Shown here piece by piece: positions 3,860-29,079 of a stretch of 45,585 bases of DNA (within the stretch, counting starts at the first letter, position 1; each line of letters starts with the position of its first letter). This stretch comes from Pseudomonadota bacterium (GTDB lineage Bacteria > Pseudomonadota > Gammaproteobacteria > Burkholderiales > Rhodocyclaceae). A program made the translations under genes and the position numbers. The notes under the pieces are model-generated. The model saw nothing but the letters and a program-made list of their open reading frames with translations, did no database searches and was not told where the DNA came from. Location: contig JAFEDK010000046.1 in NCBI GenBank assembly GCA_018241665.1, positions 188 through 45,772 of the forward strand. The letters are read 5' to 3'.

Positions 3860-3926
3860 GTGGGGGCGAATTCATTCGCCCTCCGCCGGTTGAACACAGT
3901 CCGTGGGCGAATGAATTCGCCCCCAC
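3860..3926. repeat. REP pair (BIME-like element), copy 1
   Basis: Two inverted 22-nt REPs at 3860-3881 and 3905-3926, separated by 23 nt. Each REP is a GTGG head followed by the imperfect palindrome GGGCGAAT-TC-ATTCGCCC. The outer flank repeats the head as CCCCACAAGA CCCCACAAGG. It sits in the 359-bp divergent gap between the TPR gene and the penicillin-binding protein gene. Apart from the remnant at 4015-4040, I see no other feature in that gap. Confidence 0.9.
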
Positions 3927-4014
3927 AAGACCCCACAAGGCCGGTGTGCGGGCACATTTCCGCTACACATGGGCGGCGAGGGGCTGCCCGATCTGTGTTA
4001 AAACGCGTTCCACC

Positions 4015-4040
4015 CGAGCACAGTCCGTGATTCGCCCCTG
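4015..4040. repeat. Truncated REP-element remnant at the PBP start codon
   Basis: GCACAGTCCGTG-ATTCGCCCCTG matches the right part of copy 1 (ACACAGTCCGTG...ATTCGCCCCCA), with the first arm of the palindrome deleted. The ATG of the penicillin-binding protein begins at the base after it, so the remnant occupies the place of the ribosome binding site. Confidence 0.6.
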
Positions 4041-6428
4041 ATGCCGCTACCCGCTCTTTCCGCTTTGCTGACGCAGGCCGTCGTCCGCGTCCGCCCCCTC
4101 CTCGAACGTCTGCGCCACCCCACCCGCCGAGGCGTGCTGCTGACCGTGGCCGCGCCGCCGGCACTGCTGCTGGCCTACGCGCTGATCCTGATCCCCTTCA
4201 CGCCGGGCATCAGCGACATCCGCAAGGCCAAGGTGGAGCAGCCGGCGCGGGTGCTGTCGGCGGACGGCAAGGAGCTGGCGGTGTTCAAGTGGGCCAACCG
4301 CCAGTGGGTCGGGCTGGCCGACATCTCGCCGCAGGTCACCGCAGCGCTGATCTCCACCGAGGATCACCGCTTCTACGAACACCACGGCATCGACTTCTAC
4401 CGCCTCGGCGGTGCCGCGCTGCGCACCTTCTCCGGCGACAAGCAGGGCGGCTCGACGCTGACCCAGCAGCTCGCCCGCAACCTGTTCCCGGACGATATCG
4501 GCCGCGCGCCGACGCTGACCCGCAAGCTGAAGGAAGCGATCACCGCGCTGAAGATCGAGGCCCTGTATTCCAAGGACGAGATCCTCGAGACCTATCTCAA
4601 CACCGTGCCCTTCCTCTACAACGCGTGGGGCATCGAGATGGCGGCGCGGACCTACTTCGACAAGTCGGCCAGGAATCTCGACGTGCTCGAGAGCGCCACG
4701 CTGGTCGGCATGCTGAAGGGCAACAGCTACTACAACCCGGTGATCAACCCGGAACGCGCCGCGACCCGTCGCAACACCGTGCTGGCGCAGATGGCCAAGC
4801 ACGGCAAGCTCGACGAGAACCGCCTGGCCGGGCTGCAGAAGAAGCCCCTGCGCCTCGACTTCGAGCGCCAGCTGGAGGCGCCCGGCGCCGCGCCGCACCT
4901 CGCCCAGCAACTGCGCAAGTGGCTGATCGCCTGGGCCGACCGCAACGACTACAACGTCTACGCCGACGGCCTGGTGGTGCGCACCACCATCGATTCCCGC
5001 CTGCAGGCCCAGGCCAACCAGGCCGTGCAGCGTCGCGGCCGCCAGCTGCAGGCGCTGGCCGACCAGGCGTGGAGCGGCCGGCGTGGGTGGACCGGCAGCC
5101 CGGAGCTGGTGGACGCCTTCATCAAGGAATCGAAGGAATACCGCAGCGCGCTGGCCGCCGGCCAGACGCCGGAGGAGGCCCTCAAGCGCCTGCGCGCCGA
5201 CCGCGCCTTCATGGACGCGCTGCGCCGCGACAAGACCCGCGTGCAGGTCGGCTTCATGGCCCTCGACCCGCGGGACGGCCAGGTGCGTGCCTGGGTCGGT
5301 AGCCGCGACTTCGTGCAGGACCCCTTCGACCATGTGGCCCAGGCGCGCCGCCAGCCCGGCTCGACCTTCAAGCCCTTTGTGTATGGCGCGGCCTTCGACA
5401 AGGGCATGAGCCCGGACGACACCATCGTCGACCAGGAGGTCGAGATTCCGCTGCCCGGCGGCGAGGTGTGGCGGCCCAGCGACGACGGGGCGCCGAGCGG
5501 GCGGGCGATGAGCCTGCGCGACGGCCTGGCCTATTCGAAGAACACCATCACCGCCCAGCTCATGCAGAAGGTCGGCCCGGCCCGCGTCGCCAAGCTGGCC
5601 AAGGCGATGGGGGTGCGCCAGAGCCCGCTGGAAGAGGTGCCGTCGCTGGCCCTTGGCACCAGCCCGGTGACGCTGAAGGAAATGGTCACCGCCTACGGCA
5701 GCATCGCCAACGGCGGCAGCTACATCGAGCCGATGCTGGTGATCCGTGTTGAGGACAGCGAAGGCAAGGTGCTGGAGGAGTTCGCCCCGGCCAAGCCGCA
5801 GGAAGTGCTGCCGCCGGCCACCGCCTACACCCTGATCGACGTGATGCGCGGCGTGGTGAACCGCGGTACCGGCGTCGGCATCCGCAACCAGTTCGGCATC
5901 CGCGCCGACGTGGCCGGCAAGACCGGCACCACCCAGGACAACACCGACGGCTGGTTCATCCTGATGCACCCGCAGCTGGTGGCCGGCGCCTGGGTCGGCT
6001 TCAACGACAACCGGGTGACGTTGCGCAGCGACTACTGGGGGCAGGGCGCCCACAGCGCGCTGCCGATCGTCGGCGACACCTTCAGCTACGCGCTGCGCAG
6101 CCGCCTCATCGATGCCAAGGAGCGCTTCGAATCGAAGGCCCAGCCGGGCCTGCTGGCGCGGGCCTGGGAATGGCTGTCGACGGGGCTGAGCGACTGGTGG
6201 CAGGGCTTGTTCAAGCGGCCCGAGCCGGCGCCCGAGGCGCCAACCCGCCGCATTACGCCGGTCGAGCCTGAGGCCCCGCCGCCGGTGCCCCCGGTGCCGG
6301 GGCCCGACGAGCCGTTGCCCGTGCCGGCGCTGCCGGAGCCGTCGCCGGACAGCGTGCCGCCTGTGCCTCCGGCCGACACCCCGCCGCCGCCGACGGTGCC
6401 CAGCCTCGACCCGTCGTCCGGGCGCTGA
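4041..6428 (+). CDS. Class A penicillin-binding protein (transglycosylase/transpeptidase)
   Basis: A 795-residue bifunctional peptidoglycan synthase of the PBP1 type. A membrane anchor lies at about residues 32-51. The glycosyltransferase 51 domain follows, with EDHRFYEHHG (Glu107) and GGSTLTQQLARNL (136-148). The transpeptidase domain has SxxK at Ser441-Lys444 (PGSTFKPF), SxN at Ser499-Asn501 (SKN) and KTG at 627-629. It polymerises and cross-links lipid II products on the periplasmic side. The last 70 residues are almost pure Pro/Glu/Ala/Val, an unusual tail. No good ribosome binding site precedes the ATG, which abuts a repeat remnant. The panE-like gene follows 5 bp downstream. Confidence 0.93.
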   Translation: MPLPALSALLTQAVVRVRPLLERLRHPTRRGVLLTVAAPPALLLAYALILIPFTPGISDIRKAKVEQPARVLSADGKELAVFKWANRQWVGLADISPQVTAALISTEDHRFYEHHGIDFYRLGGAALRTFSGDKQGGSTLTQQLARNLFPDDIGRAPTLTRKLKEAITALKIEALYSKDEILETYLNTVPFLYNAWGIEMAARTYFDKSARNLDVLESATLVGMLKGNSYYNPVINPERAATRRNTVLAQMAKHGKLDENRLAGLQKKPLRLDFERQLEAPGAAPHLAQQLRKWLIAWADRNDYNVYADGLVVRTTIDSRLQAQANQAVQRRGRQLQALADQAWSGRRGWTGSPELVDAFIKESKEYRSALAAGQTPEEALKRLRADRAFMDALRRDKTRVQVGFMALDPRDGQVRAWVGSRDFVQDPFDHVAQARRQPGSTFKPFVYGAAFDKGMSPDDTIVDQEVEIPLPGGEVWRPSDDGAPSGRAMSLRDGLAYSKNTITAQLMQKVGPARVAKLAKAMGVRQSPLEEVPSLALGTSPVTLKEMVTAYGSIANGGSYIEPMLVIRVEDSEGKVLEEFAPAKPQEVLPPATAYTLIDVMRGVVNRGTGVGIRNQFGIRADVAGKTGTTQDNTDGWFILMHPQLVAGAWVGFNDNRVTLRSDYWGQGAHSALPIVGDTFSYALRSRLIDAKERFESKAQPGLLARAWEWLSTGLSDWWQGLFKRPEPAPEAPTRRITPVEPEAPPPVPPVPGPDEPLPVPALPEPSPDSVPPVPPADTPPPPTVPSLDPSSGR

Positions 6429-6433
6429 GCGGC

Positions 6434-7318: not shown

Positions 7319-7496
7319 GACTCGCGTATCGCGGCCGGCCGCCGCGCAGGCAGGATTTCTCCTACAGCGTTATCGGCTGCGTCGGACAGGGCACCGCCAT
7401 GCCGGGGGCCTATATTCAAGTCACCCTGACTGACATCGCGCGCCGGCTACATCCGGTTCCCGACGTTCCGCGATGCCGCACTCCAAGGAGACAGCA

Positions 7497-7808
7497 ATGA
7501 AGAACACCATCGCCACGCTTGCACTGTCCGGCCTGCTGGGTATTACCGCCGTGGGTTGTGCGGTGACCCGCGAACAATCCACCGTCGGTGAATACCTGGA
7601 CGACGCGACGATCACCACCCGCGTCAAGGCCAAGCTCGCCGAGGATCCGAAGGTGAGCGGCATGGCCATCGGGGTGGAAACCCTGAAGGGCGTGGTCCAG
7701 CTGTCCGGCTTCGCCAAATCCGCGGTCGAGAAGGGCCGGGCCGAAGAGATCGCCCGCACGACAGCCAGCGTGAAGGGCGTGATCAACGATATCGTCATCA
7801 AGCCCTGA
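7497..7808 (+). CDS. BON-domain lipoprotein
   Basis: A 103-residue protein with a lipoprotein signal peptide (LLGITAVGC, cysteine at about residue 18), followed by one BON domain (DDATITTRVKAKLAEDPKV...VETLKGVVQLSGF). BON domains bind phospholipid and occur in OsmY-like stress proteins; this one should be anchored at an envelope membrane facing the periplasm. The start at 7497 follows CCAAGGAGACAGCA. It is strongly similar to the other BON protein at 8835-9173. It ends with a clear terminator. Confidence 0.9.
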   Translation: MKNTIATLALSGLLGITAVGCAVTREQSTVGEYLDDATITTRVKAKLAEDPKVSGMAIGVETLKGVVQLSGFAKSAVEKGRAEEIARTTASVKGVINDIVIKP

Positions 7809-7856
7809 CGGTTCCGGGGGCGGCCTGGCCGCCCCGGGGGCGAGGACGGTACGAGG

Positions 7857-7891
7857 CGCCAGCGTCCGATGAGTCGCTGGCGTTTTTATTT
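7857..7891 (+). terminator. Rho-independent terminator after the BON lipoprotein
   Basis: An 8-bp stem CGCCAGCG / CGCTGGCG with a 10-nt loop, followed directly by TTTTTATTT. It is preceded by a second GC-rich hairpin around 7816-7838. Confidence 0.88.
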
Positions 7892-7921
7892 GTGGTCAGG
7901 GAGTGGAGGCGAATTTGTGTT

Positions 7922-7988
7922 GTGGGGGCGAATTCATTCGCCCATGGCCTGCGTTGAGCCGACTGCGGGCGAATGAATTCGCCCCCAC
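7922..7988. repeat. REP pair (BIME-like element), copy 2
   Basis: Inverted REPs at 7922-7943 and 7967-7988 with the same 23-nt spacing. A head-only remnant (CTGTGGGGGCGGAT) follows near 8010-8023. It lies between two convergent transcription units. Confidence 0.9.
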
Positions 7989-8085
7989 AGAGAGAGGGCC
8001 CCCGCTCCGCTGTGGGGGCGGATCTGTATCTGTTTGAGGGGAGACGCGGGAATGCGCTCCGCAGGCTGGCACATCCCCGTATCGA

Positions 8086-8496
8086 TCAGCCAGGATGGGC
8101 GCCGGGCCCGTCGGTGGTGGCGTGGACGTAGGCGAGCAGTTCGTCGAGCTGGAAGGATTTGTCGAAGAAGGCTTGCGCGCCGAGCATGCGGCAGCGTTCG
8201 CGCACGATGGGATGGGTGTGGTTGGAGAAGACCACCGCCCGCGGCGTGTCCGCGCCAGGCGGCAGGTCGTGAAGGGCGGCGAGCACCTTCAGCCCGGTGC
8301 CGCCCTGCAGTTCCAGGTCGATGATCGCCAGGTCGGGGTGAAGCCGGCGCAGGAGCTCGATGGCCGCCGCCTCGTTGTCGGCGGCGCCGACGATCTCGAC
8401 GCCGCCGGTCGCCGCCAGCATCTCGGCGAGCAGGTCGCGCAGCGCCAGCGAATCTTCGATCAGCACGATGCGCACGGGATGGTGGGCGCTGGCCAT
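8086..8496 (-). CDS. Stand-alone receiver-domain response regulator
   Basis: A 136-residue protein with only a CheY-like receiver domain. It has the acidic pair E14-D15, the phospho-acceptor Asp60 in LAIIDLELQGGTG, and a conserved Lys in AFFDKSF. It has no DNA-binding or enzymatic output domain. The start at 8496 gives a compact protein beginning just before the receiver fold; the longer frame upstream overlaps the neighbouring gene. It lies 13 bp after the small membrane protein gene, so the two are co-transcribed. It probably acts by protein contact or in a phosphorelay. A partner kinase could be the CHASE3 kinase 1.5 kb away, which is inference only. Confidence 0.85.
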   Translation of the reverse strand: MASAHHPVRIVLIEDSLALRDLLAEMLAATGGVEIVGAADNEAAAIELLRRLHPDLAIIDLELQGGTGLKVLAALHDLPPGADTPRAVVFSNHTHPIVRERCRMLGAQAFFDKSFQLDELLAYVHATTDGPGAHPG

Positions 8497-8509
8497 GTCG
8501 CGGGCCCGG

Positions 8510-8773
8510 CTAGTAGAGGGAAAGGGCTGCGGGCGGGCGGCATTCCTGCAGCACGCCCAGCGCCGAGGGGCCGAGCACGCGGTACACCTCTTCGAGGCTG
8601 CGCACGCAGGGTTCCGGCCGGCTGGTGGCGGACACATGGTGGGTGGTGCCGAACAGCATGCCGCCGCACAGCAGCAGGCTGCCGAGCAGGCAGGCGTGCA
8701 CGGTCCAGTCCCATTCGCCGGGTGGGGCCCAGGTGTGGCTGCGCTCCAGGCGTGGGAAAGTGGCGTGGGTCAT
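8510..8773 (-). CDS. Small membrane protein of unknown function
   Basis: An 87-residue protein starting MTHATFPRLERSH, with a good ribosome binding site (CAGGAGACGACC). A single hydrophobic helix lies at about residues 24-42 (WTVHACLLGSLLLCGGMLFG), and the soluble tail has two cysteines. I recognise no family. It sits between the BON-domain gene and the receiver-only regulator on the same strand, so it is probably a small envelope component of that unit. Confidence 0.65.
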   Translation of the reverse strand: MTHATFPRLERSHTWAPPGEWDWTVHACLLGSLLLCGGMLFGTTHHVSATSRPEPCVRSLEEVYRVLGPSALGVLQECRPPAALSLY

Positions 8774-8834
8774 GGTCGTCTCCTGGAAGTTCGGGACGGG
8801 GGGCTGCAACGGCCGGGCTGGCCGGCCGCCGTGT

Positions 8835-9173: not shown

Positions 9174-9330
9174 GGTGGTTCTCCTTGAGGCTGTTGTCGG
9201 TATGCCGGGGCGCGGCGCGTGCCGCGCTTCCATGCTTCCCACTCTATGCGGCGGGCGGGCGGCGGGCTGTCCGACAAGGGCGGAACCGCGTGTAGGACTG
9301 CGCTGGCAGCGATGTCGGACTCCACGGGCT

Positions 9331-9357
9331 TTGCCGCCGGAGCCGGCTGGCTACAAT
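9331..9357 (+). promoter_or_regulatory. Possible promoter of the LuxR-type regulator
   Basis: TTGCCG at 9331-9336 and TACAAT at 9352-9357, with a 15-bp spacer that is shorter than ideal. The -10 match is good and lies about 30 bp before the start codon. It is weak evidence. Confidence 0.3.
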
Positions 9358-9387
9358 GAAGACTGTTGAATACGCGGAAAGGACCCC

Positions 9388-10023: not shown

Positions 10024-10051
10024 CGGGGGGCCGCTGCGGCATGTGGCCGCG

Positions 10052-14063: not shown

Positions 14064-14551
14064 GCCTTCAGCCTCATGTCCACGAAGAACTCCCGCAGTT
14101 TGGGAAAGGCGAACACCGGCAGGCCGGTGGCGGCCTCGATGCGCGCCGTGGCGGCGGCGATGCCGTCCGGCGTTTCGGTGGCGAGTACGAACCACATGTT
14201 GAGGCGGTGCTCGCGCCGGTAGTTGTGGGCCACCTCGGGCAGCGCATTGACCGCCGCCGCCACCTCGTCGAAGCGTTCTTCTGGTACCGCCAGCGCGGCC
14301 AGCACGAAGCGCCCGCCGAGGCGTTCGATTTGGAACATCGGCCCGAAGCGCGTCAGCACGCGCGCGTCGAGCAGGCGCTGCAGGCGGGCGAGGAGGTCGG
14401 CCTCGGTGGTGCCGAGCTGTCCGGCGACTTCCCGGTAGGGCTCGTCACTGATCGGGAAGCCGCCCTGCAGCGCGTTGATGATGCGCCGGTCGAGCTCGTC
14501 GAGGACGGCCGGTGGCGGGCGGCGGGATGGGGCGCTCGAAGGGGCGTTCAT
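14060..14551 (-). CDS. nirG: Siroheme decarboxylase subunit NirG (Lrp/AsnC-like)
   Basis: A 163-residue protein with an Lrp-like N-terminal helix-turn-helix (LDELDRRIINALQGGFPISDEPYREVAGQLG) and the signature VAHNYRREHRLNMWFVLATE, typical of the NirD/NirG branch. It works with NirH and NirDL in siroheme decarboxylation. It overlaps nirDL by 4 bp upstream and nirH by 4 bp downstream. The assignment to G rather than D rests on position after a D-L fusion. Confidence 0.88.
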   Translation of the reverse strand: MNAPSSAPSRRPPPAVLDELDRRIINALQGGFPISDEPYREVAGQLGTTEADLLARLQRLLDARVLTRFGPMFQIERLGGRFVLAALAVPEERFDEVAAAVNALPEVAHNYRREHRLNMWFVLATETPDGIAAATARIEAATGLPVFAFPKLREFFVDMRLKA

Positions 14552-15537
14552 GCGGCGGCGAGCCCCTGCGGCGCTTGGTAGCGGGCGCCGCACTGCTTGT
14601 AGCAGTCGGTGGAGAACAGCACCGCGTGCGGGAAGGCGGCCAGGCCGACGGTGTCGGCCAGCTCGGCGCGGCGCGCCTCGACGGCAGGGCGGGATTGACC
14701 GTGGATCATGCAGAACAGGTTGTAGGGCCAGTCGGGGGTGGTGCGCCGACGGTAGCACAGGCTGACGCCGTCCTGGCCGGCGAGGGCGTGGCCGAGGGCG
14801 CTGACCTGCGCCTCCGGCACCGCCCACACGCACATCGCGTTGGCCTGCCAGCCCAGTTCCCGGTGCCGCACGACGACGCCGAAGCGGCGCAGCGTGCCGT
14901 CGGCGAGCCAGCGTTCGAGCGTGGCGAGCACGGCGTCTTCGCCGAGGCCGGCGGCGTGGCCAAGGGCGCGGAACGGCCGGGCGACCCAGGGCAGGCCATC
15001 GTGCAGGGCATCCACCAGACGCCAGTCAGCATCGTTCAGCGGTTGGCGCGGGCCGGCCGATGTGGCGTGGCGGGTGCGCCGGCCGTTGGCCAGGTCGAAG
15101 CCCAGGTCGATGTGGAATTCCTCGAGCAGCGGCAGGGCGATCGGCGGGCAGCCGGTGGCGGCGCCCATCTCGGCCAGCAGCGCGGCCAGCGCAGCCTCGT
15201 CGTGGGCGCTGGCGACGAACCACAGGTTGTAGCGGTGCTCGCGGCGGTAGTTGTGATTGACGCCGGCAAAGGCGCTGACGATGCGCGCCACGCGGGGCAA
15301 CTCGTCGACCGGCACGGCCATCGCGGCGAGGGTGCTGGCGCCCAGGCGGCGCGGCGCGAAGACGGCGCCGACCCGGCTGATCTTGCCGGCATTGCGCAGG
15401 CCGGCCAGCCGTGCCATGGCCTCGTCGGCGCTGCATCCGACCCGTGCACCGACGGCAGCCCAGGGCTCGGGAGCGAGCGGAAAGCCGCGCTGGAAGTCGT
15501 TGAGCAGCTGGAAGTCACGCGGATCGGCGGCGATCAT
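14548..15537 (-). CDS. nirDL: Fused siroheme decarboxylase NirDL
   Basis: A 329-residue protein made of two Lrp/AsnC-like halves. Residues about 1-153 are NirD-like, with GVNHNYRREHRYNLWFV. Residues about 165-329 are NirL-like, with VSLCYRRRTTPDWPYNLFCMIHG. In Pseudomonas nirD and nirL are separate; fused versions are known in other denitrifiers such as Paracoccus. The start at 15537 follows GAGAGGAGCCTGGCC. The frame stays open upstream through a 15-bp tandem repeat and a REP element, which would add Ala-Pro-Thr-Gly-Ser repeats, but that extension is not expected to be coding. It is the first gene of the nirDL-nirG-nirH translational unit. Confidence 0.92.
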   Translation of the reverse strand: MIAADPRDFQLLNDFQRGFPLAPEPWAAVGARVGCSADEAMARLAGLRNAGKISRVGAVFAPRRLGASTLAAMAVPVDELPRVARIVSAFAGVNHNYRREHRYNLWFVASAHDEAALAALLAEMGAATGCPPIALPLLEEFHIDLGFDLANGRRTRHATSAGPRQPLNDADWRLVDALHDGLPWVARPFRALGHAAGLGEDAVLATLERWLADGTLRRFGVVVRHRELGWQANAMCVWAVPEAQVSALGHALAGQDGVSLCYRRRTTPDWPYNLFCMIHGQSRPAVEARRAELADTVGLAAFPHAVLFSTDCYKQCGARYQAPQGLAAA

Positions 15538-15565
15538 GGCCAGGCTCCTCTCGTCCGGGGGATGT

Positions 15566-15685
15566 CTTGTGGTGGTGGAGCTTCCTGTGGTGGAGCTTCC
15601 TGTGGGGGCGCTTCCTGTGGGGGCGCTTCCTGTGGGGGCGCTTCCTGTGGGGGCGCTTCCTGTGGGGGCGCTTCCTGTGGGGGCG
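15566..15685. repeat. 15-bp tandem repeat running into a REP head
   Basis: Six perfect copies of CTTCCTGTGGGGGCG at 15596-15685, preceded by one variant unit (CTTCCTGTGGTGGAG, 15581-15595) and one degenerate unit. The last unit supplies the GTGG head of REP copy 3. It lies in the nirF-nirDL gap, within the nirDL leader. Confidence 0.95.
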
Positions 15686-15743
15686 AATTCATTCGCCCGC
15701 GGACTCTGGCGAGCCGGCATCGGGCGAATGAATTCGCCCCCAC
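15677..15743. repeat. REP pair (BIME-like element), copy 3
   Basis: Inverted REPs at 15677-15698 and 15722-15743 with a 23-nt spacer. It is located inside the nir operon, between nirF and nirDL, so the transcript would carry both hairpins. Confidence 0.92.
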
Positions 15744-15799
15744 GGGGTGCTTGAACCCCAAGGGCGGCTTGATCCTCGACGGATAGAGCGCAGCGCATC

Positions 15800-17397: not shown

Positions 17398-17458
17398 GAA
17401 GGCCGGGCCGGTGGGGTTGGGGTGGGGCGCTTGAACGATTGCTAAGGGGAGATTTCTT

Positions 17459-17525
17459 GTGGGGGCGAATTCATTCGCCCGCAGTCGGTCGATCGGAGTC
17501 CGAGGGCGAATGAATTCGCCCCCAC
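17459..17525. repeat. REP pair (BIME-like element), copy 4
   Basis: Inverted REPs at 17459-17480 and 17504-17525 with a 23-nt spacer. It lies between nirC and yigZ, which diverge. Its upstream flank (GGGGAGATTTCTTGT) resembles the 15-bp units beside copy 7. Confidence 0.92.
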
Positions 17526-17613: not shown

Positions 17614-18204
17614 ATGCCCCAGACCCTCGCCGCTGCTGCCCACAGCGAACTGCTGATCAAGAAGAGCCGTTTCCTCGGTTGCGTGCAGCCGATGGCCGAC
17701 CGCGCCGAAGCCCAGCGCGTGGTGGCGGCGCTGAAGGCGCAGCATCCGGGGGCGGCCCATGTGTGCTGGGCCTTGCTGGCGGGCGGACAGTCGGCGGCGG
17801 TGGACGACGGTGAGCCCAGCGGCACGGCCGGGCGGCCGATGCTCGACGTGCTGCGCCACCAGGACCTGGAAGGCGTCCTGGCGACGGTGGTGCGTTACTA
17901 CGGCGGCGTGAAGCTGGGGGCTGGCGGCCTGGTGCGGGCCTATACGGACAGCGTGGCGCAGGCGCTGCTGGTGGCCGAGAAGGTCGCCATCGTGCGCAGC
18001 ACTTCGCTGCGCTGCGCGGTGCCCTATGCGCAGGAAGGGCTGGTACGGCGGGCGCTGGATGGCGTCGGGGCGGTGCTGCTGGGGGTGAGTCACGGCGAAC
18101 AGGTCGAATTCGCCTTCAGCTTGCCCGTGGATGCAGCGGCGGAACTGGCGGCCCGTCTCGACGAGGCCTGCCATGGGCGTCTGGTGTGGCTGGGGGAGGG
18201 GTAG
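17614..18204 (+). CDS. yigZ: YigZ/IMPACT family protein
   Basis: A 196-residue protein with the IMPACT/UPF0029 domain: HVCWALLAGG, DDGEPSGTAGRPML and VVRYYGGVKLGAGGLVRAY. The family is widespread, with a ribosome/GCN1-related eukaryotic homologue; its bacterial role is not settled. The start at 17614 is the first ATG that fits the fold; there is no clear ribosome binding site. It is the only plus-strand gene within the nir region and is flanked on both sides by REP pairs, so it may mark a rearrangement or insertion that split nirSM from nirCF. Confidence 0.9.
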   Translation: MPQTLAAAAHSELLIKKSRFLGCVQPMADRAEAQRVVAALKAQHPGAAHVCWALLAGGQSAAVDDGEPSGTAGRPMLDVLRHQDLEGVLATVVRYYGGVKLGAGGLVRAYTDSVAQALLVAEKVAIVRSTSLRCAVPYAQEGLVRRALDGVGAVLLGVSHGEQVEFAFSLPVDAAAELAARLDEACHGRLVWLGEG

Positions 18205-18248
18205 GAAGCGAAGTCCCGCGCAGTGAATGCCTGTGGGGGGTAATGCCT

Positions 18249-18315
18249 GTGGGGGCGAATTCATTCGCCCGCAGTCCGCTGATCGCAGTCCGCGGGCGAA
18301 TGAATTCGCCCCCAC
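18249..18315. repeat. REP pair (BIME-like element), copy 5
   Basis: Inverted REPs at 18249-18270 and 18294-18315 with a 23-nt spacer very similar to that of copy 4. The flank carries a 16-bp duplication ending in the head (AATGCCTGTGGGGGGT, then AATGCCTGTGGGGGCG). It lies between the convergent yigZ and nirM. Confidence 0.92.
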
Positions 18316-18368
18316 AGGTGGGCTCGCCGGCTGGATTCCTTCATCCGCCGCCGTGCCTGCCAGTGCGA

Positions 18369-18683
18369 TCAGCCCTTCAGGATCCAGCCCAGCACGTCCT
18401 TCAGCTCGGCGTCGCTGATCTTCTCGGCCGGGTTGGGCGGCATCGGGATCTGGCCCCAGTTGCCGGCACCGCCCTTGCGGACCTTGTCGGTGAGCTTGGC
18501 GACGGCGTCGCCCTGGCCCTTGTACTTGGCGGCGATGTCCTTGAAGGCCGGGCCGACCAGCTTCTTGTCCATCGAATGGCAGGCCAGGCAGCCGGCCTTC
18601 TGGGCGGACGCAGCCGGGTCGGCAAAGACGCTGCCGCTGGCGGCGGTGGCCAGCAGGGCGAGCAGCAGGAAGCGTTTCTTCAT
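18369..18683 (-). CDS. nirM: Cytochrome c551 (NirM)
   Basis: A 104-residue periplasmic cytochrome with a Sec signal (MKKRFLLLALLATAASGSVFA), heme c motif C32-L-A-C35-H36 and the Met81 ligand in the IPMPPNP loop of c551 cytochromes. It donates electrons to NirS. The start follows CTAGGAGACAAGAA. It is 61 bp downstream of nirS. A GC hairpin (GCCGCCC / GGGCGGC, 18708-18732) in that gap might adjust the relative level of the two messages. Confidence 0.94.
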   Translation of the reverse strand: MKKRFLLLALLATAASGSVFADPAASAQKAGCLACHSMDKKLVGPAFKDIAAKYKGQGDAVAKLTDKVRKGGAGNWGQIPMPPNPAEKISDAELKDVLGWILKG

Positions 18684-21552: not shown

Positions 21553-21619
21553 GTGGGGGCGAATTCATTCGCCCGCGGACTCCATTCAAGCGGCGGAGGG
21601 CGAATGAATTCGCCCCCAC
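21553..21619. repeat. REP pair (BIME-like element), copy 6
   Basis: Inverted REPs at 21553-21574 and 21598-21619 with a 23-nt spacer. The spacer read on the minus strand closely matches copy 1. It lies just after nirE in a 329-bp gap that also holds the dyad at 21631-21657. Confidence 0.92.
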
Positions 21620-21630
21620 GGATTCTTGTG

Positions 21631-21657
21631 GGATATGCACATCATTGGTGCATATCC
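21631..21657. promoter_or_regulatory. Perfect 10-bp inverted repeat, possible operator
   Basis: GGATATGCAC-N7-GTGCATATCC, followed by a further half-like GGTGCAT near 21671. There is no T-run, so a terminator is unlikely. It lies about 200 bp before the transglutaminase-DUF2126 start and just after nirE. Confidence 0.5.
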
Positions 21658-21853
21658 TGGTGTCCATTCTGGTGCATGTTCGGCGGCCTGTTGCCTGGCC
21701 GGCAAGCACCATCCCTCTTTTGATACTCCCAAAGCCCTTGTTTGGCGCCGGATTGCAACATCCGCGCAACGGGCGCGGCGTAAACCGCTTGGCGTGAAGT
21801 TTGCTACGTCAAGCAATGATTCTGAAAACCGCGCCCCAAGAACGGAGTATCCC

Positions 21854-24800
21854 GTGACCATCCATGTCGCCCTCAATCACCTGACCTCCTACAAGTACGA
21901 CCGGCCGATCAATGTCGGCCCGCAAGTCGTCCGTCTGCGGCCTGCACCCCACAGCCGCACGCGCATCCTGTCCTACTCCCTGAAGGTGCTGCCCAAGCCC
22001 CACTTCATCAACTGGCAGCAGGATCCGCAGTCCAACTATCTGGCGCGCCTGGTCTTCCCGGAGAAGGTCACCGAGTTCAGCGTGGAGGTGGACCTGGTGG
22101 CCGAGATGTCGGTGATCAATCCCTTCGACTTCTTCCTGGAGCCCGAGGCCGAGAACTTCCCGTTCGAGTACGCCGGCGCCCTCAGCCACGAGCTGGCCCC
22201 GTACCGCCTGAAGGACGAAGCCACGCCGGCCTTCAAGAAGTACCTGGACGGCATCTCCCGCGACAAGACCCGGGTGGTGGACTTCCTGGTCAAGCTCAAT
22301 GCCGACCTGCAGAACCACATCGGCTACGTGATCCGCATGGAGCCGGGCGTGCAGACGCCGGAAGAGACGCTCACCAAGCGCACCGGCTCGTGCCGCGACT
22401 CGGCCTGGCTGCTGGTCCAGCTGCTGCGTCACCTGGGCCTGGCGGCGCGCTTCGTGTCCGGCTACCTGATTCAGCTGAAGGCCGACGTGAAGTCCCTCGA
22501 CGGCCCGTCCGGCACCGAGGTGGACTTCACCGACCTGCACGCCTGGACCGAGGTCTACCTGCCCGGCGCCGGCTGGGTCGGCCTCGACCCGACCTCCGGC
22601 CTGTTCGCCGGCGAAGGCCACATCCCGCTGGCCGCCTCGCCCGATCCGTCGTCGGCGGCGCCGATCTCCGGTCTCATCGACGAGTGCGAGTGCGAATTCG
22701 AGCACCTCATGAAGGTGACCCGCGTGAAGGAAGCGCCGCGGGTCACCAAGCCCTACACCGAGGAGCAGTGGGCCGAGATCGAGGCCCTCGGCCACCGCAT
22801 CGACGTCGACCTCGACGCCAACGACATGCGCCTGACGATGGGCGGCGAGCCGACCTTCGTGTCGATCGACGACCCGGACGGCGCCGAGTGGAACACCGAG
22901 GCGATGGGCCCGACCAAGCGCGTCCGCGCCGAAGACCTCTATCATCGCCTGCGCGAGAAATACGGCCCCCACGGCCTGGCCCACTTCGGCCAGGGCAAGT
23001 GGTATCCCGGCGAGCAACTGCCGCGCTGGTCGCTGACCTGCTTCTGGCGCAAGGACGGCGAGCCGGTGTGGACCAACCCGGACCTGATCGCCGACGCCTC
23101 CGCGCCGGGCGACGTGGACGCCGCCCAGGCCAACCTCTTCCTCGCCGGCATCGCCGAGCGGCTGGCGCTGGACCCGCGGCGGGTCTTCCCGGCCTTCGAG
23201 GACGCCTTCTACTACCTGTGGCGGGAGCGCCGCCTGCCGGGCAACGTCGATCCCTTCGATGCGCGTCTCGACGACCCGCTCGAGCGCGACCGCATCCGCC
23301 GCGTCTATGAACACGGCCTGCCCAATCCGGTCGGTTACGTGCTGCCGGTCAGCCTCAACAGCTACACCGGCGACTGGCAGACCGGGCCGTGGTTCCTGCG
23401 CGACGAGCGCTGCTACCTGATCCCCGGCGACTCGCCGCTGGGCTACCGCCTGCCGCTGGATTCCCAGCCGTGGGTGGCGAAGGGCGACTATCCCTACGTC
23501 AATCCGCCGGATCACCACCAGGTCTTCCCGCCGCTGCCCGAGTATGCCGCCATCCGCCGCCAGCTGCCGGGCGGCCAGACCGCCGTGCTCAATGCGCTGA
23601 AGGACGGCGAGGCCGGTTTCGGCTCGTCCGCCGCGGCACGTGCCGCCGCTGCGCTGAAGGCCGCCCGCGACGCGGAGAAGCTGAGCCCCACCGACCGCCA
23701 GCCGGAGCCCTTCAAGTCCGCCGACTGGATCGTCCGCACCGCCATGTGCGCCGAGCCGCGCAACGGCACGATGCACATCTTCATGCCGCCGCTGTCCAGC
23801 CTGGAAAAGTACCTGGAGCTGGTCGCCGCCATCGAGGCGACCGCCGAGGCCCTCGGCACGCCGGTCGTCATCGAAGGCTACGAGCCGCCGTCCGACCCGC
23901 GCCTGACCCACTTCCGCATCACCCCCGACCCCGGCGTGATCGAGGTGAACATCCACCCGTCGCGCAACTGGGAAGAGCTGGTGGACCGCACCACCCACCT
24001 CTACGAGGCGGCCCACTACTCGCGCCTGACCACCGAGAAGTTCATGGTGGATGGCCGCCATACCGGCACCGGCGGTGGCAACCACTTCGTGCTCGGCGGC
24101 GCCACCCCGTCCGACTCGCCCTTCCTGCGCCGGCCGGACCTGCTGCGCAGCCTGATCTCCTACTGGCACAACCACCCGAGCCTGTCCTACCTGTTCTCCG
24201 GCCTGTTCATCGGCCCGACCAGCCAGGCGCCGCGCATCGACGAGGCGCGCAACGACTCGGTGTATGAAATCGAGACGGCCTTCCGCCAGTTCCCGAAGGC
24301 CGGCGAGGAGGTGCCGCCGTGGCTGATCGACCGCCTGCTGCGCAACCTGCTCATCGACGTGACCGGCAACACCCACCGCTCCGAGTTCTGCATCGACAAG
24401 CTGTACTCGCCGGACGGCCCCACCGGCCGCCTTGGCCTGCTTGAACTGCGCGCCTTCGAGATGCCGCCCCACGCGCGCATGTCGCTGGCCCAGCAGCTCC
24501 TGCTGCGCGGCCTGCTGGCCCGCTTCTGGGATAAGCCCTATGCGCCGGAGCGGCTGGTGCGCTGGGGCACCGAGCTGCACGACCGCTTCCTGCTGCCGCA
24601 CTTCGTCGAGCAGGACTTCAACGACGTGATGGAGGACATGCAGGGTCATGGCCTCGACTTCAAGCCGGAGTGGTTCGCGCCGCACATGGAGTTCCGCTTC
24701 CCGAAGATCGGCGACTTCGCGGTGCGCGGCATCGACGTGGAACTGCGCGGTGCCCTCGAGCCCTGGCATGTGATGGGCGAGGAGGGGGCTATCGGCGGCA

Positions 24801-25234
24801 CCGTGCGCTTCGTCGATTCGTCCGTCGAGCGCCTGCAGGTGAAGGTCTCCGGCATGTCCGACGACCGCTTCCTGCTGGCGGTCAATGGCCGCACGATCCC
24901 GCTGCAGCCCACCGGCACCGTCGGCGAGCACGTCGCCGGCGTGCGCTACCGGGCCTGGCAGCCGCCGTCCTGCCTGCACCCGACCATTCCGTCCCATGCG
25001 CCGCTGGTCTTCGACCTGGTGGACACCTGGACCGGCCGCTCCCTCGGCGGTTGCCAGTACCACGTGGCGCACCCAGGCGGTCGCAACTTCGAGACCTTCC
25101 CGATCAACGCCTTCGAGGCTGAGAGCCGCCGCCTGGCGCGCTTCTTCCGCATGGGCCACACGCCGGGCGAACCGGCGGTGAAGGCCTCGCCGGTGGAGAA
25201 GGAGTTCCCGTTCACGCTGGATCTGCGGCGCTGA
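21854..25234 (+). CDS. Transglutaminase-like protein with DUF2126 domain
   Basis: A 1126-residue protein. The order is a bacterial transglutaminase N-terminal beta domain (residues 1-85), a transglutaminase-like core with the triad Cys180 (RTGSCRDSA), His229 (DLHAWTEVYL) and Asp245 (GLDPTSG), and the large DUF2126 region filling the rest. The start is GTG at 21854, after ACGGAGTATCCC; an upstream in-frame region to 21626 crosses non-coding sequence. It heads the conserved trio with the ATP-grasp/alpha-E gene and a second transglutaminase. Iyer, Aravind and colleagues predicted this gene set to synthesise or attach a peptide-like product. The true substrate is unknown; the core could act as amidase, peptidase or transferase. 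Confidence 0.93.
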   Translation: MTIHVALNHLTSYKYDRPINVGPQVVRLRPAPHSRTRILSYSLKVLPKPHFINWQQDPQSNYLARLVFPEKVTEFSVEVDLVAEMSVINPFDFFLEPEAENFPFEYAGALSHELAPYRLKDEATPAFKKYLDGISRDKTRVVDFLVKLNADLQNHIGYVIRMEPGVQTPEETLTKRTGSCRDSAWLLVQLLRHLGLAARFVSGYLIQLKADVKSLDGPSGTEVDFTDLHAWTEVYLPGAGWVGLDPTSGLFAGEGHIPLAASPDPSSAAPISGLIDECECEFEHLMKVTRVKEAPRVTKPYTEEQWAEIEALGHRIDVDLDANDMRLTMGGEPTFVSIDDPDGAEWNTEAMGPTKRVRAEDLYHRLREKYGPHGLAHFGQGKWYPGEQLPRWSLTCFWRKDGEPVWTNPDLIADASAPGDVDAAQANLFLAGIAERLALDPRRVFPAFEDAFYYLWRERRLPGNVDPFDARLDDPLERDRIRRVYEHGLPNPVGYVLPVSLNSYTGDWQTGPWFLRDERCYLIPGDSPLGYRLPLDSQPWVAKGDYPYVNPPDHHQVFPPLPEYAAIRRQLPGGQTAVLNALKDGEAGFGSSAAARAAAALKAARDAEKLSPTDRQPEPFKSADWIVRTAMCAEPRNGTMHIFMPPLSSLEKYLELVAAIEATAEALGTPVVIEGYEPPSDPRLTHFRITPDPGVIEVNIHPSRNWEELVDRTTHLYEAAHYSRLTTEKFMVDGRHTGTGGGNHFVLGGATPSDSPFLRRPDLLRSLISYWHNHPSLSYLFSGLFIGPTSQAPRIDEARNDSVYEIETAFRQFPKAGEEVPPWLIDRLLRNLLIDVTGNTHRSEFCIDKLYSPDGPTGRLGLLELRAFEMPPHARMSLAQQLLLRGLLARFWDKPYAPERLVRWGTELHDRFLLPHFVEQDFNDVMEDMQGHGLDFKPEWFAPHMEFRFPKIGDFAVRGIDVELRGALEPWHVMGEEGAIGGTVRFVDSSVERLQVKVSGMSDDRFLLAVNGRTIPLQPTGTVGEHVAGVRYRAWQPPSCLHPTIPSHAPLVFDLVDTWTGRSLGGCQYHVAHPGGRNFETFPINAFEAESRRLARFFRMGHTPGEPAVKASPVEKEFPFTLDLRR

Positions 25235-25298
25235 GTACGGAGCCGGCCTCTCCGGGGGCCGGTTTTGCCGGGGGCTCCTCCCTCTGGGAGACGTCCTG

Positions 25299-25343
25299 CG
25301 CGAGGATTTCCTGAAGGGAGATTTCCTGAGGGGAGATTTCCTG
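25299..25343. repeat. Imperfect 15-bp tandem repeat beside REP copy 7
   Basis: Three consecutive units with period 15: GCGAGGATTTCCTGA, AGGGAGATTTCCTGA and GGGGAGATTTCCTGT. The last base leads straight into the REP head, the same arrangement as upstream of nirDL but with a different unit. Confidence 0.8.
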
Positions 25344-25426
25344 TGGGGGCGAATTCATTCGCCCGCAGGCGTGTCCCGGCCCGGAGGACTTTCCCGGCGC
25401 GGATGGTCGAATGAATTCGACCCCAC
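25343..25426. repeat. REP pair, copy 7, with long spacer and compensatory change
   Basis: The first REP (25343-25364) is standard. The second (25405-25426) reads GGTCGAAT-GA-ATTCGACC, so both arms changed together and pairing is kept. The spacer is 40 nt, not 23. With the tandem units it fills the 307-bp gap between the transglutaminase and ATP-grasp genes. Confidence 0.88.
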
Positions 25427-25541
25427 AAGGAGCCCCCACAGGCAATCTCCCTCCAGGGAAGCCCTCCCGCTTAACCAAAATCAACAACTTCCGTGCCGTC
25501 TGCGGCACGGTCGTGCGCGTGGTGTGTGCTAGTTTCGCAAG

Positions 25542-28070
25542 ATGCCCAGCTCCATCCTTGCCCATTACCCGTATCGACCCGACAGCTACGACGAGTTGTT
25601 CGGTGAAGAAGGCGTGCGCCCGCACTGGCAGGACTTCCTCGACCACATCGACGAATCCAGCGCCGACACCCTGAAGGTGCGTGCCGCCCAGCTCTCCCGC
25701 GGCATCCAGCAGAACGGTGTCACCTACAACGTGTATGCCGACCCCCGCGGTGCCGACCGCCCGTGGTCGGTGGACCTGCTGCCGCTGATCCTGCCCGCCG
25801 ACGAATGGCGCGGCATCTCGGCGGCGATCACGCAGCGCGCGCGCCTGCTCAATGCGCTGCTCGGCGACCTCTACGGCGCCCAGACGACCCTTTCCGAAGG
25901 CCTTCTGCCGCCGGAACTGGTGTATGGCCACAAGGGTTTCCTGTGGCCGTGCTCCGGCCTCAAGCCGCCTGGCGGCGCCTACCTGCACCTCTACGCGGCC
26001 GACCTGGCCCGCTCGCCGGATGGCCGCTGGTGGGTCATCGCCGACCGCACCCAGAGCCCGTCGGGCGCCGGCTACGCGCTGGAGAACCGCCAGCTGGTGT
26101 CGCGGGCTTTTCCCGACCTGTTCCGCGACATGCAGGTGCGCAGCCTGTCGGGCTTCTTCCGTGGCCTGCAGCGCAGCCTGGCGAGCCAGGCACCGACCGA
26201 CGGCGAGCCGCCGCTGACGGTGCTGCTGACGCCCGGGCCGTTCAACGAAACCTATTTCGAGCACGTCTACCTGGCCCGCAACATGGGCTTTCCGCTGGTC
26301 GAGGGGCAGGACCTGACGGTGCGCAACGACACGGTCTTCCTCAAGACGGTGTCCGGCCTCAAGCGTGTGCACGCGATCCTGCGCCGCCTCGACGACGACT
26401 TCTGCGACCCCGTGGAGCTACGCGCCGATTCCGCCCTCGGCGTACCCGGGCTGCTCGGCGCGGTGCGCGCCGGCAAGGTGCTGGTGGCCAACGCATTGGG
26501 CAGCGGCCTGCTCGAATCGGCGGCGCTGCCGGGTTTCCTGCCGGGCATCTGCCGCCACCTGCTCGGCGAGGAGCTGGCCATGCCGTCGGTGGCCACCTGG
26601 TGGTGCGGCGAGGAGCCGGCCCGCAAGGAGGTGCTGGAGAACCTGCGCAGCCTGGTCATCAAGCCGACCTTTCCGGGTGGCGGCAGCGAGGTCATCTTCG
26701 GCGACCAGCTCGGCGAGGACCAGTTCGAAGAGGTGGCCCGGCGCATCGAGGCCGAACCGTCGGCCTTCGTCGCCCAGGAGCTGGTCAAGCTGTCCCGCGC
26801 GCCGGCCTGGGGCGGCGGCCAGCGCCGCAAGCTGCTGACCCGCTCGATGGGCCTGCGGGTCTACGCGGCGATCACGCCGGAAGGTTACAACGTGCTGCCC
26901 GGTGGCCTGGCGCGTGTCGCTGGCGTGGATAACACGCGCATCCTGACCATGCAGAAGGGCGGCAGCAGCAAGGACACCTGGGTGCTGTCCGACGGCCCGG
27001 TGGCCAGCTTCAGCCTGCTCAACAACAACATCCGCGTCGGCGACCTGATCGAGGAAACCGGCACCCTGTCGTCGCGCCTGGCCGAGAACCTGTTCTGGTG
27101 CGGCCGCTATGGCGAGCGCTGCGACTCCGTTGCCCGGCTGGCCCGGCTGGCCTTGTCGCGGCTATCGGAGGGGCGGCGCTCGGAGCGCGCCGGCGCGCTG
27201 ACCATCATGCTCGAACTGGCGGCGGGGGCCGGCCTGGTGGAGTCCAGGGTGGGGAGCCTGCCGATCGCCAAGGCCGAACTGGACCTGTTCCGCGCGGTGC
27301 TCGACCGCCGCTCCGACAGCGGCCTGGCGGCCAACCTGCAGCGCCTCACCTGGTGCGCGACGCAGGCCCGCGAGCACCTGTCCCTCGACCACTGGCACGC
27401 CCTCAAGCGCCTGTCCGCCGAGCTGGAGGACGCCCGCGCGACGGTCACCGACGTATCGGCCTTGCTCGAATTCCTCGACGGTGCGCTGACCACCTTCGTG
27501 TCCCTGTCCGGCTTCGCGATGGACAACATGACCCGCGACACCGGCTGGCGCCTGCACATCGTCGGCCGCCGCGTCGAGCGCCTGGACAACCTGGCCCGCA
27601 CGCTGGCGCGCTTCCTGCGCAGCTACGGCGAAATCAACGGCCCGCTGCAGCGGGAGCTGGCGGTGGAGGCCCTGCTCGAGCTGTGCGACTCGATCATCAC
27701 CTACCGCACCCGCTACCGCGCCCAGCCCGAGCTGCTGCCGGCGTTGCACATGCTGACCACGGACGACGGCAACCCCCATGCGCTGGCCTTCCAGGTGCGG
27801 ATGGTGAGCAATTACCTGGCCCGCTTCGAGGCCGACGAGAAGGTGGACCTCGGCGTGGCCGAGCTGGAAGCCAGCTTCGCGGCGATCCGCAGCTTCCCGT
27901 GGGGGCGCCTGGAGGCGGTCTGCCCGGCCCTCGAGCGGGTTGACGCGAGCCGCCAGCTGGCCGGCCTCTTCGACCGCCTGGGCAGCGCCGGCCGCACGCT
28001 GTCGGACCGCCTGGCCATGCGTTTCTTCAGCCACGTCGGCCAGACCGGCCAGGCCACCTTTGCCGCCTGA
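25542..28070 (+). CDS. Circularly permuted ATP-grasp / alpha-E fusion protein
   Basis: An 842-residue protein. The N-terminal part, to about residue 480, is the circularly permuted ATP-grasp type 2 family (QQNGVTYNVYADPRGADRPWSVDLLPLILPADEW, GHKGFLWPCSGLKPPGGAYLHLYAADLARSPDGRWWVIADRTQ). From about residue 510 it is the helical alpha-E (DUF403) domain, starting RLAENLFWCGRYGERCDS. In many bacteria these are separate genes (COG2308 and COG2307); here they are fused. ATP-grasp enzymes form amide bonds through acyl-phosphates, so an amidoligase role is predicted. The next transglutaminase starts 7 bp downstream. No product is known. Confidence 0.92.
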   Translation: MPSSILAHYPYRPDSYDELFGEEGVRPHWQDFLDHIDESSADTLKVRAAQLSRGIQQNGVTYNVYADPRGADRPWSVDLLPLILPADEWRGISAAITQRARLLNALLGDLYGAQTTLSEGLLPPELVYGHKGFLWPCSGLKPPGGAYLHLYAADLARSPDGRWWVIADRTQSPSGAGYALENRQLVSRAFPDLFRDMQVRSLSGFFRGLQRSLASQAPTDGEPPLTVLLTPGPFNETYFEHVYLARNMGFPLVEGQDLTVRNDTVFLKTVSGLKRVHAILRRLDDDFCDPVELRADSALGVPGLLGAVRAGKVLVANALGSGLLESAALPGFLPGICRHLLGEELAMPSVATWWCGEEPARKEVLENLRSLVIKPTFPGGGSEVIFGDQLGEDQFEEVARRIEAEPSAFVAQELVKLSRAPAWGGGQRRKLLTRSMGLRVYAAITPEGYNVLPGGLARVAGVDNTRILTMQKGGSSKDTWVLSDGPVASFSLLNNNIRVGDLIEETGTLSSRLAENLFWCGRYGERCDSVARLARLALSRLSEGRRSERAGALTIMLELAAGAGLVESRVGSLPIAKAELDLFRAVLDRRSDSGLAANLQRLTWCATQAREHLSLDHWHALKRLSAELEDARATVTDVSALLEFLDGALTTFVSLSGFAMDNMTRDTGWRLHIVGRRVERLDNLARTLARFLRSYGEINGPLQRELAVEALLELCDSIITYRTRYRAQPELLPALHMLTTDDGNPHALAFQVRMVSNYLARFEADEKVDLGVAELEASFAAIRSFPWGRLEAVCPALERVDASRQLAGLFDRLGSAGRTLSDRLAMRFFSHVGQTGQATFAA

Positions 28071-28077
28071 AGGCCCC

Positions 28078-28995
28078 ATGAACCGTTCCGCCGCCTACAC
28101 CATCCTCCACGAAACCGAATACGCCCCCTGCGGCGTGCCGGTGTCGCTGGCCCAGCACCTGCTGCACCTGATTCCCCGCGAGCTGCCGTGGCAGAGCCGG
28201 GAGTCCGGGCGCATCGTCGTCGAGCCGGATCTGGCACGCCTGAGCGAGGGCGAGGACGCCTTCGGCAACCCGGTCGCCTGGCTGTCCCTCGACACACCCC
28301 ACGATGGCCTGCTGGTGCGCGCCGAAAGCCACGTCACGGTGAGCAGCCGGGAGCAGCCCGACCCCGAGGACTCGCCGCCTTGGGAAGGTGTGCGCGAAAG
28401 CCTGCGCTATCACCCGGAGCCGCGCGCTGCGGATTCCCTCGACGCGCTGCGCTACCTGTACGCCTCGCCGCGGGTGCCCTCCAGCGCTGCGCTGGCGGCC
28501 TTCGCCCGCGCAGCCTTCCGGCCAGGCGAGCCGCTGCTGGCCGGCGCGCAGGCCTTGATGGAGGTGATCTTCAAGACCTTCACCTTCGATGCCAAGGCCA
28601 CCGAGGTGAACACCCCGGTCCATGAGGTGCTGCAGCGCAAGCGCGGGGTGTGCCAGGACTTCGCCCACCTGATGATCGCCGCCCTGCGCTCGGTCGGCCT
28701 GCCGGCCCGCTACATGTCCGGCTACCTGCTCACCGACCCGCCGCCGGGCAAGCCGCGCCTGGTCGGTGCCGACGCCTCCCACGCCTGGGTGGCGGTGTGG
28801 TGCCCGAAGAACGGCTGGGTCGAGTACGACCCGACCAATGGTATCCAGCCCGACCTGCGCCACGTGACCCTCGGCTGGGGGCGCGATTTCCAGGACGTGT
28901 CGCCGCTGCGCGGGGTGATACTCGGCGGCCTTACCCAGGCGCCGGAAGTGCGCGTCACCGTGATGCCGGACGCCGAGCGGGCCGCGCCCGCCTGA
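28078..28995 (+). CDS. Transglutaminase family protein, second copy
   Basis: A 305-residue protein with the N-terminal beta domain (about 1-95) and a transglutaminase core with Cys192 (RKRGVCQDFAHLMI), His235 (DASHAWVAVW) and Asp251 (EYDPTNG). It is the third gene of the ATP-grasp/alpha-E unit and starts 7 bp after its neighbour's stop. In this family the domain is thought to be a protease or amidohydrolase-like partner of the amidoligase. It is much shorter than the DUF2126 protein and lacks any extra domain. Confidence 0.92.
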   Translation: MNRSAAYTILHETEYAPCGVPVSLAQHLLHLIPRELPWQSRESGRIVVEPDLARLSEGEDAFGNPVAWLSLDTPHDGLLVRAESHVTVSSREQPDPEDSPPWEGVRESLRYHPEPRAADSLDALRYLYASPRVPSSAALAAFARAAFRPGEPLLAGAQALMEVIFKTFTFDAKATEVNTPVHEVLQRKRGVCQDFAHLMIAALRSVGLPARYMSGYLLTDPPPGKPRLVGADASHAWVAVWCPKNGWVEYDPTNGIQPDLRHVTLGWGRDFQDVSPLRGVILGGLTQAPEVRVTVMPDAERAAPA

Positions 28996-29057
28996 TCGCG
29001 GTGGCGGGGGAATACTGAGGCCGTGCATCGGTGGCGGTGGCCGATGCCAGCCGGGCT

Positions 29058-29079
29058 GGGCGAATGAATTCGCCCCTAC
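29058..29079 (-). repeat. Single REP with GTAG head, copy 8
   Basis: On the minus strand it reads GTAG followed by GGGCGAAT-TC-ATTCGCCC. No inverted partner is visible nearby. GTAG in place of GTGG is an accepted head variant in REP families. Confidence 0.85.

Follow-up and report, generated by a model that had tools for sequence, protein, structure and literature searches.

REPIN-like elements, a single RAYT gene and edge minisatellites in a Rhodocyclaceae genome

In Pseudomonas fluorescens SBW25, repetitive extragenic palindromes (REPs) form inverted pairs, termed REPINs (REP doublets forming hairpins); the pair is the unit, folds as a hairpin, lies between genes and exists in hundreds of copies (Bertels and Rainey 2011, PMC3116915). 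There a cognate, single-copy gene for a REP-associated tyrosine transposase (RAYT, or TnpA-REP) stands beside REPIN clusters, REPINs and their flanks are clustered in tandem, and singlets are explained as remnants. REPtrons have a RAYT gene edged by its own REPs (PMC8266576), and in the Stenotrophomonas families a GT(A/G)G head directly adjoins a perfect palindrome whose loop is small (Nunvar 2010, PMC2817692). The mechanism of REPIN spread is unresolved according to PMC3116915 and PMC8266576. Here we describe a family of 67-bp elements in a stretch of 45,585 nucleotides from a member of the Rhodocyclaceae (the window; assembly GCA_018241665.1, contig JAFEDK010000046.1, positions 188 to 45,772, forward strand), which resemble these systems in the traits just named, together with their RAYT gene and the minisatellites found at their edges.

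Elements of the window and the genomic RAYT gene

The initial annotation had described six 67-bp copies, each made of two inverted 22-nt REPs separated by 23 nt. All six were recovered exactly, both REPs being GTGGGGGCGAATTCATTCGCCC with zero mismatches, and the proposed kinship of spacers on opposite strands held as well, the spacer of copy 1 and the reverse complement of that of copy 6 being identical by eye at 18 of 23 positions. At up to three mismatches the window contained 15 REP matches, against a highest count of 0 across 100 shuffles; beyond the six exact copies there is a looser seventh pair and one single REP. All six copies fold as long hairpins (z -8.2 to -10.1). The claim that the elements lie between genes also stood, as 8/8 sites fall outside the 16 predicted genes checked around them. 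A 416-aa open reading frame (ORF, 14548-15798) overlaps copy 3 solely by an apparently spurious N-terminal extension, its domains beginning near residue 95. As in REPINs, two REPs of the same type are inverted at a preferred spacing within one hairpin, the REP is a palindrome with a GTAG or GTGG head, copy number is high and, within the window, the location is intergenic.

The assembly (G000; 5,425,507 bases, 55 contigs) belongs to a genus set of 23 genomes, own included. It contains 757 REP cores at up to one mismatch (reversed control, 0) and 649 exact cores, exact counts across the genus ranging from 0 to 649. Exact-core pairs with spacers of 20-26 nt number 221 in this genome, 36 in G016 and 0-3 in each of the 21 others. 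Among the first own stretches fetched, the spacer was exactly 23 nt in 48 of 59 pairs. The spacers vary but show kinship, and the REP arms are nearly identical, as expected where the REP pair is the unit. Copy 5 had no match in phages and plasmids (blastn, E<=0.01), nor did the exact 22-nt REP in viral contigs or the REP core in a literature search; as far as these searches show, the elements represent a new REPIN/RAYT lineage.

A Pfam Y1_Tnp search of the genome gave one match, at G000:C3:133855-134301, encoding 149 aa with no stops. The protein scores 150 bits with NCBIfam REP_Tyr_transpos (cut-off 80) and matches the solved TnpA-REP structure PDB 4ER8 modestly (E 1e-5). In its translation the Y1_Tnp domain carries the HuH motif PDHLH and the tyrosine motif RYIVANP, residues assigned by eye, and as a single match in its own genome the gene is not itself spreading. 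Its 3' side has two REPINs and its 5' side one REPIN and one REP, the nearest REPINs being about 40 bp after the stop and about 110 bp before the start. The genome therefore holds a cognate RAYT with the same REPs beside its gene, and the locus has a REPtron layout. Within about 4 kb to each side, whole REPINs and their flanks form tandem arrays with periods of 115 and 113 bp. Those in L008 have the composition of bacterial interspersed mosaic elements (BIMEs), that is, tandem modules of whole REP pairs with flanks; the label is inapplicable to the 10-18 bp edge arrays described below. Arrays of whole REPINs and flanks spaced at about 113-116 bp were seen at L008:5428-6116, L008:13279-13689 and L009:9631-9973, and in L078 (G003, 7397-8795) the RAYT is flanked on each side by REPIN arrays with a period of about 110 bp, their REP type being different from our own.

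From the directly observed copy number, fixed geometry, RAYT gene with flanking REPINs, match of REP and RAYT clades, presence or absence of copies and differences between orthologous copies, we conclude with high confidence that these 67-bp units are non-autonomous REPINs for which one RAYT (TnpA-REP, a HuH/Y1 nuclease) acts in trans. The initial annotation had proposed movement in trans and would have given it up had neither the genome nor its relatives held a RAYT; the one RAYT gene, with the same REPINs on both sides, supports this presumed movement. The RAYT would bind the single-stranded REPIN hairpin, cut beside the GTGG head and paste copies elsewhere. The features of the window are as follows.

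3860..3926: REPIN copy 1 (22-23-22), exact REPs, with a leftward TPR gene (2788-3681) on one side and a rightward penicillin-binding protein gene (4041-6428) on the other
3927..3937, minus strand: short duplication with period 10 at the right edge of copy 1, TTGTGGGGTCTTGTGG in the inward reading
7922..7988: REPIN copy 2, exact REPs, between a BON-domain gene and a response-regulator gene
15572..15685, plus strand: edge minisatellite, 15-bp unit GTGGGGGCGCTTCCT, 7.6 copies, entering the left REP of copy 3
15677..15743: REPIN copy 3, exact REPs, between two leftward genes of the nitrite-reductase (nir) cluster
17459..17525: REPIN copy 4, exact REPs
18232..18247, plus strand: single 16-bp edge unit TGTGGGGGGTAATGCC, left of copy 5
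18249..18315: REPIN copy 5, exact REPs
21553..21619: REPIN copy 6, exact REPs
25305..25348, plus strand: tandem repeat of the 15-bp unit GATTTCCTGAGGGGA, 2.9 copies, entering the head of the seventh pair
25343..25426: the looser seventh pair of REPs, spacer of 40 nt, two mismatches in the right REP
29058..29079, minus strand: single REP with GTAG head

Copies 3-5 lie inside or beside the nitrite-reductase gene cluster; a cd1 nitrite reductase gene is present in the genome, its best plasmid match being 75%. The window further includes clustered genes (21626-28995) for DUF2126 amidoligase, circularly permuted ATP-grasp and transglutaminase proteins, and a Lys-Gly-Asn tRNA cluster on the minus strand (39454-39702). 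By eye, copy 4 (17445-17458) and the seventh pair (25329-25342) have in common a 14-nt flank, GGGGAGATTTCYT, directly before the head, and at the seventh pair this flank forms part of the edge-repeat unit; either such units can be carried along with a REPIN or one was copied from the other.

RAYT clades and orthologous sites in the genus

A RAYT match (E<=0.001) was obtained in 9 of the 23 genomes, own included, some of the matches being weak or partial. The REPs around seven RAYTs that we compared mostly keep one plan: GTRG, an 8-nt stem arm and a 2-nt loop starting with T. The REP is GTGG-GGGCGAAT-TC for the clade of our RAYT, GTAG-GGGCGACT-TC for that of the RAYTs of G013 C76, G013 C105 and G019, and GTRG-GTCGGACT-TC for that of G003, G018 and G013 C13. 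Judged by the sequences of these seven, the stem of the REP changes along with the RAYT clade. The RAYT tree has 11 rows from 16 loci tried, among which it does not settle the position of our own RAYT; a motif filter removed L003, L004, L006 and two loci of G006, and the tree was built leaving aside the RAYTs of G022 and G008, which are broken or partial. In L079 and L035 (G022) and L080 and L082 (G008), the RAYT genes are apparently split over two frames or cut by the contig end.

We compared 23 of our REP clusters (from the window and L008-L010) with the three closest genomes, G016, G021 and G020, of which G016 is nearest. Flanks could be paired at 12 clusters in G016 and 14 each in G021 and G020, and an intact REPIN was present at none of these sites; the elements are not fixed at the same positions in all relatives, and it is such fixation that the initial annotation had named as fatal to mobility. 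Of the clean presence or absence for which it had proposed to look, the absence in relatives was found, but in most gaps the difference exceeds the 67 bp of the element itself, and the junctions are mostly not clean. At the copy 1 site G016 has a solo long palindrome, GTGGGGGCGAATGAATTCGCCCCCAC, and G020 and G021 have nothing REP-like. Copy 2 is absent in G016, with a diverged single palindrome in G020 and G021; about 250 bp are missing at the copy 3 site in all three genomes, and copy 4 is absent in all three. At the copy 6 site only 8 nt, GTGGGGGC, stand between the same flanks in G016, which we read as a REPIN remnant, and the L009:7630 site has a damaged REP in G016. The copy 5 site carries a different palindrome in the relatives: the orthologue of 18199-18369 in G016, G020 and G021 (L071-L073) is near-perfect, GAGGGGGCGCATGAATGCGCCCCCTC in G021, and resembles a collapsed REPIN with an altered head, perhaps kept as a terminator between convergent genes.

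Thirteen further G016 loci had BLAST matches to our loci, and eight were aligned; L107, L109, L122, L123 and L127 were excluded, with flanks far apart, one-sided or weakly matched in our loci. Of the eight, five had the same REPIN in the same orientation, one an inverted interior, one a solo palindrome and one was interrupted by N. The inversion (L132/L169) concerns the REPIN interior at one site in two species, the spacers being identical at 21 of 23 positions by eye after reverse complementation, and probably arose via recombination or cruciform exchange between the inverted arms. At L140/L014 the solo palindrome is in G016 and the REPIN in our genome. To judge from this site and that of copy 1, REPINs collapse to solo palindromes. 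Our genome has 11 exact solo palindromes to 221 REPINs, and G016 has 16 to 36 (p 5e-7). No RAYT was found in the three closest genomes at the locus matching the neighbour gene of our RAYT, and none was detected anywhere in G016, whose assembly of about 730 contigs may conceal one. Since G016 has no detectable RAYT and more solo palindromes per REPIN, its excess fits decay by deletion between the arms after RAYT loss, in this one genome pair.

Minisatellites at the REPIN edges

Tandem repeats with units of 10-18 bp stand before many REPIN ends; as far as searches show, this is a new observation, and the initial annotation did not contain it. The pattern TGTGG-N(7-12)-TGTGG-N(7-12)-TGTGGGG occurs 143 times in our genome (overlapping matches), 15 times in G016 and 0-2 times in each of the 21 others; when reversed, it gives 0 matches in our genome and 0-1 elsewhere. 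Among the 15 matches listed in the 21 other genomes, 14 are one conserved sequence that is also among the 15 of G016. In the 27 own loci fetched for listed matches, 30/31 array groups end at a REP head and the remaining one enters N; runs of N adjoin several arrays in our assembly. For statistics on ends unselected for arrays, REPINs with another REP within 170 bp (24/73 own, 0/36 in G016) and ends without a GTGG or GTAG head were excluded. At 80% identity, 18/91 isolated ends in our genome and 4/57 in G016 bear repeats, a modest difference (p 0.035), where shuffled flanks predict 0.55 and 0.11 array ends. Beyond the head at the right edge of one REPIN, from L010:1724 onward, lies a repeat of a different kind, the 7-bp AAAGCCC.

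We dissected 49 own arrays of at least two units, all with TGTGG heads, 27 of their source loci having been picked for arrays. The innermost unit consists of TGTGG, 0-5 nt (once 7) of the REP 5' arm and a locus-specific tail. In 16/49 arrays the outermost unit has a tail that matches the adjoining native flank exactly; in the remaining 33, either the outer units are degenerate or no native flank can be recognised. Opposite ends of one REPIN may bear different units (L022:516, L156). A REPIN shared with G016 (L160/L110) has five units in our genome and none in G016, and another (L012/L111) has three in ours against 14 in G016. Orthologous REPINs thus differ in array length, and arrays therefore change in place, after insertion. 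In other REP families, two convincing GTAG-headed arrays were found in the G019 RAYT locus (GGGCGACT family, with 4/22 ends in all); none was found among 46 GTCGGACT-family ends, nor among 42 REP ends of RAYT loci outside the genus (L002, L004-L007), both small samples.

The base directly before GTGG separates array ends from the rest. T is present at 22/22 array ends (18 own, 4 in G016; threshold 0.8) against 63/126 other ends (p 2e-6), and own ends alone give p 3e-5. In a smaller first sample at threshold 0.75, T was present at 14/15 own and 5/5 G016 array ends, one own end having C. At the array-free ends (n=126), C is at -2 in 81%, and the base at -1 is T in 50%, C in 39% and A in 10%, T or C together making 89%.

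The edge minisatellites would form after insertion, when synthesis enters the hairpin arm: the new strand would drop back by microhomology onto the flank about 5-12 nt upstream, each such event adding one head-plus-flank unit. Two accounts of what starts this differ over the enzyme. Under ordinary replication slippage, to which we give an even chance, the polymerase stalls in the REPIN stem and the nascent strand anneals again to a G-rich stretch a few nucleotides upstream, with the RAYT uninvolved. The shallow entry of the innermost units into the arm agrees with this, as do joint overlaps averaging 2.9 nt against 0.62 expected in the 16 arrays with a native-flank tail, and the near-perfect 14-unit array of G016, a genome in which no RAYT was found. 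Slippage leaves unexplained, however, both the T at every array end and the modest excess of arrays in the RAYT-bearing genome, and two single-unit duplications that extend to the arm end and loop (L008:12070, and L120 in G016) indicate that the stall point is not always the stem base.

Alternatively, the RAYT itself may prime the slippage, a proposal we regard as plausible though short of an even chance. Here the enzyme would nick C|T at the 5' foot of a REP; the C, now with a 3'-OH, would be extended through TGTGG into the stem, fall back by microhomology, recopy the flank to the C and be rejoined to the T held by the enzyme. E. coli TnpA-REP is reported to cleave C|T next to the REP, leaving a 3'-OH, and joining requires a C at the attacking 3' end (PMC8266576). 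The apparent requirement for T before GTGG suggests that a RAYT nick at C|T may initiate array growth. C is at -2 in 15/18 own array ends, and in own DNA fetched without selection for arrays 23 overlapping pattern matches were T-headed and none was headed by C, A or G. T also precedes the GTAG-headed arrays of the G019 locus, with its other REP type. With C at -2 and T or C at -1 matching the C|T site of E. coli TnpA-REP, REPIN ends look, by analogy, like footprints of cleavage and joining, and the arrays like a by-product of C|T nicking. Against RAYT priming, the long array in G016 indicates that expansion or persistence of arrays is possible where no RAYT is detected, 3/18 own array ends are TT or GT rather than CT, and one end at the lower threshold has C. 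The T rule is, moreover, not significant in subsets alone (blind own stretches, 9/9 vs 16/25, p 0.07; G016, p 0.11), and cleavage by our own RAYT is argued from the E. coli enzyme.

We tentatively suggest that the minisatellites may be a record of RAYT action in living cells, each visit (nick, extend, fall back, rejoin) adding a TGTGG-plus-flank unit. If so, ends with T before GTGG would be RAYT-cuttable and grow and C ends would be locked, a HuH nuclease would be a minisatellite maker, and the units of an array would give a countable readout of RAYT activity.

Remaining readings and comparison with known systems

Four points weigh against the 67-bp elements being REPINs mobilised by the RAYT. 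Transposition itself was not seen, and we infer movement. Most REPIN-bearing gaps differ from those of relatives by more than 67 bp, which blurs the precise junctions and target sites. In G016, where no RAYT was found, 36 exact-core REPINs persist, so the elements outlast a detectable RAYT or do not strictly need one. Lastly, the guide rule of the Marinomonas RAYT in vitro, by which GTAG gives CT or CA and GTGG gives CC or CA (PMC8266576), was not borne out, T:C being 50:37 before GTGG and 13:12 before GTAG (p 0.65); CA is commoner before GTAG heads (8/34 vs 3/92 before GTGG, p 0.001).

That the elements are instead terminators or protein-binding sites held in place by selection is very improbable: all eight window sites are intergenic and relatives have other palindromes at two sites, but the flanking genes occur in convergent, divergent and tandem arrangements, copies are absent from orthologous gaps, and copy number in the genus runs from none to hundreds. 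We give equally little credence to descent from an IS200/IS605-like element, or a miniature inverted-repeat transposable element (MITE), whose own transposase gene moves along, since the RAYT, although a member of the Y1_Tnp family, is a single match in the genome and scores 19.8 bits with IS200 (cut-off 55), far below its REP_Tyr_transpos score. The classification as an IS200/IS605 insertion sequence, which calls for multiple copies and an IS200-type transposase of its own, was rejected.

For REPINs served by the RAYT, the genus combines more than 200 REPINs, their single RAYT and sister species of which some have a detectable RAYT and others do not. Three properties of the edge minisatellites, namely unit sequence, dependence on T and joints, point to one particular step. 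Array length with and without the RAYT would be an in vivo measure of its action, where the assays in the cited papers, as far as their available text goes, are in vitro. The arrays would also be fast strain markers, if variable within species.

The text covered from PMC3116915, PMC2817692, PMC3686654, PMC3733652, PMC8266576, PMC8049555 and PMC12306157 contains no description of edge minisatellites, and the literature search listings gave no hint of one. Compared with SBW25, the REP sequence and lineage are different here, and head-plus-flank minisatellites were not met in the portions of PMC3116915 available. Long solo palindromes are mentioned there as unpublished; here they are located at two orthologous sites. 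The short, perfect-palindrome REPs resemble group 3 of PMC8266576, in which loop positions are critical (T in Marinomonas Mb), a likeness by description. As in Stenotrophomonas (PMC2817692), RAYT and REP co-diversify and modular amplification adjoins the RAYT; unlike the BIME modules there, which hold whole REPs, the edge units here are a head and usually few stem bases. The GTAG families (Di Nocera 2013, PMC3733652) likewise form head-to-head dimers, with spacers mostly of 20-100 bp, and clusters with flanks; no family with our stem was met in the text covered from that paper, as distinct from its figure of families.

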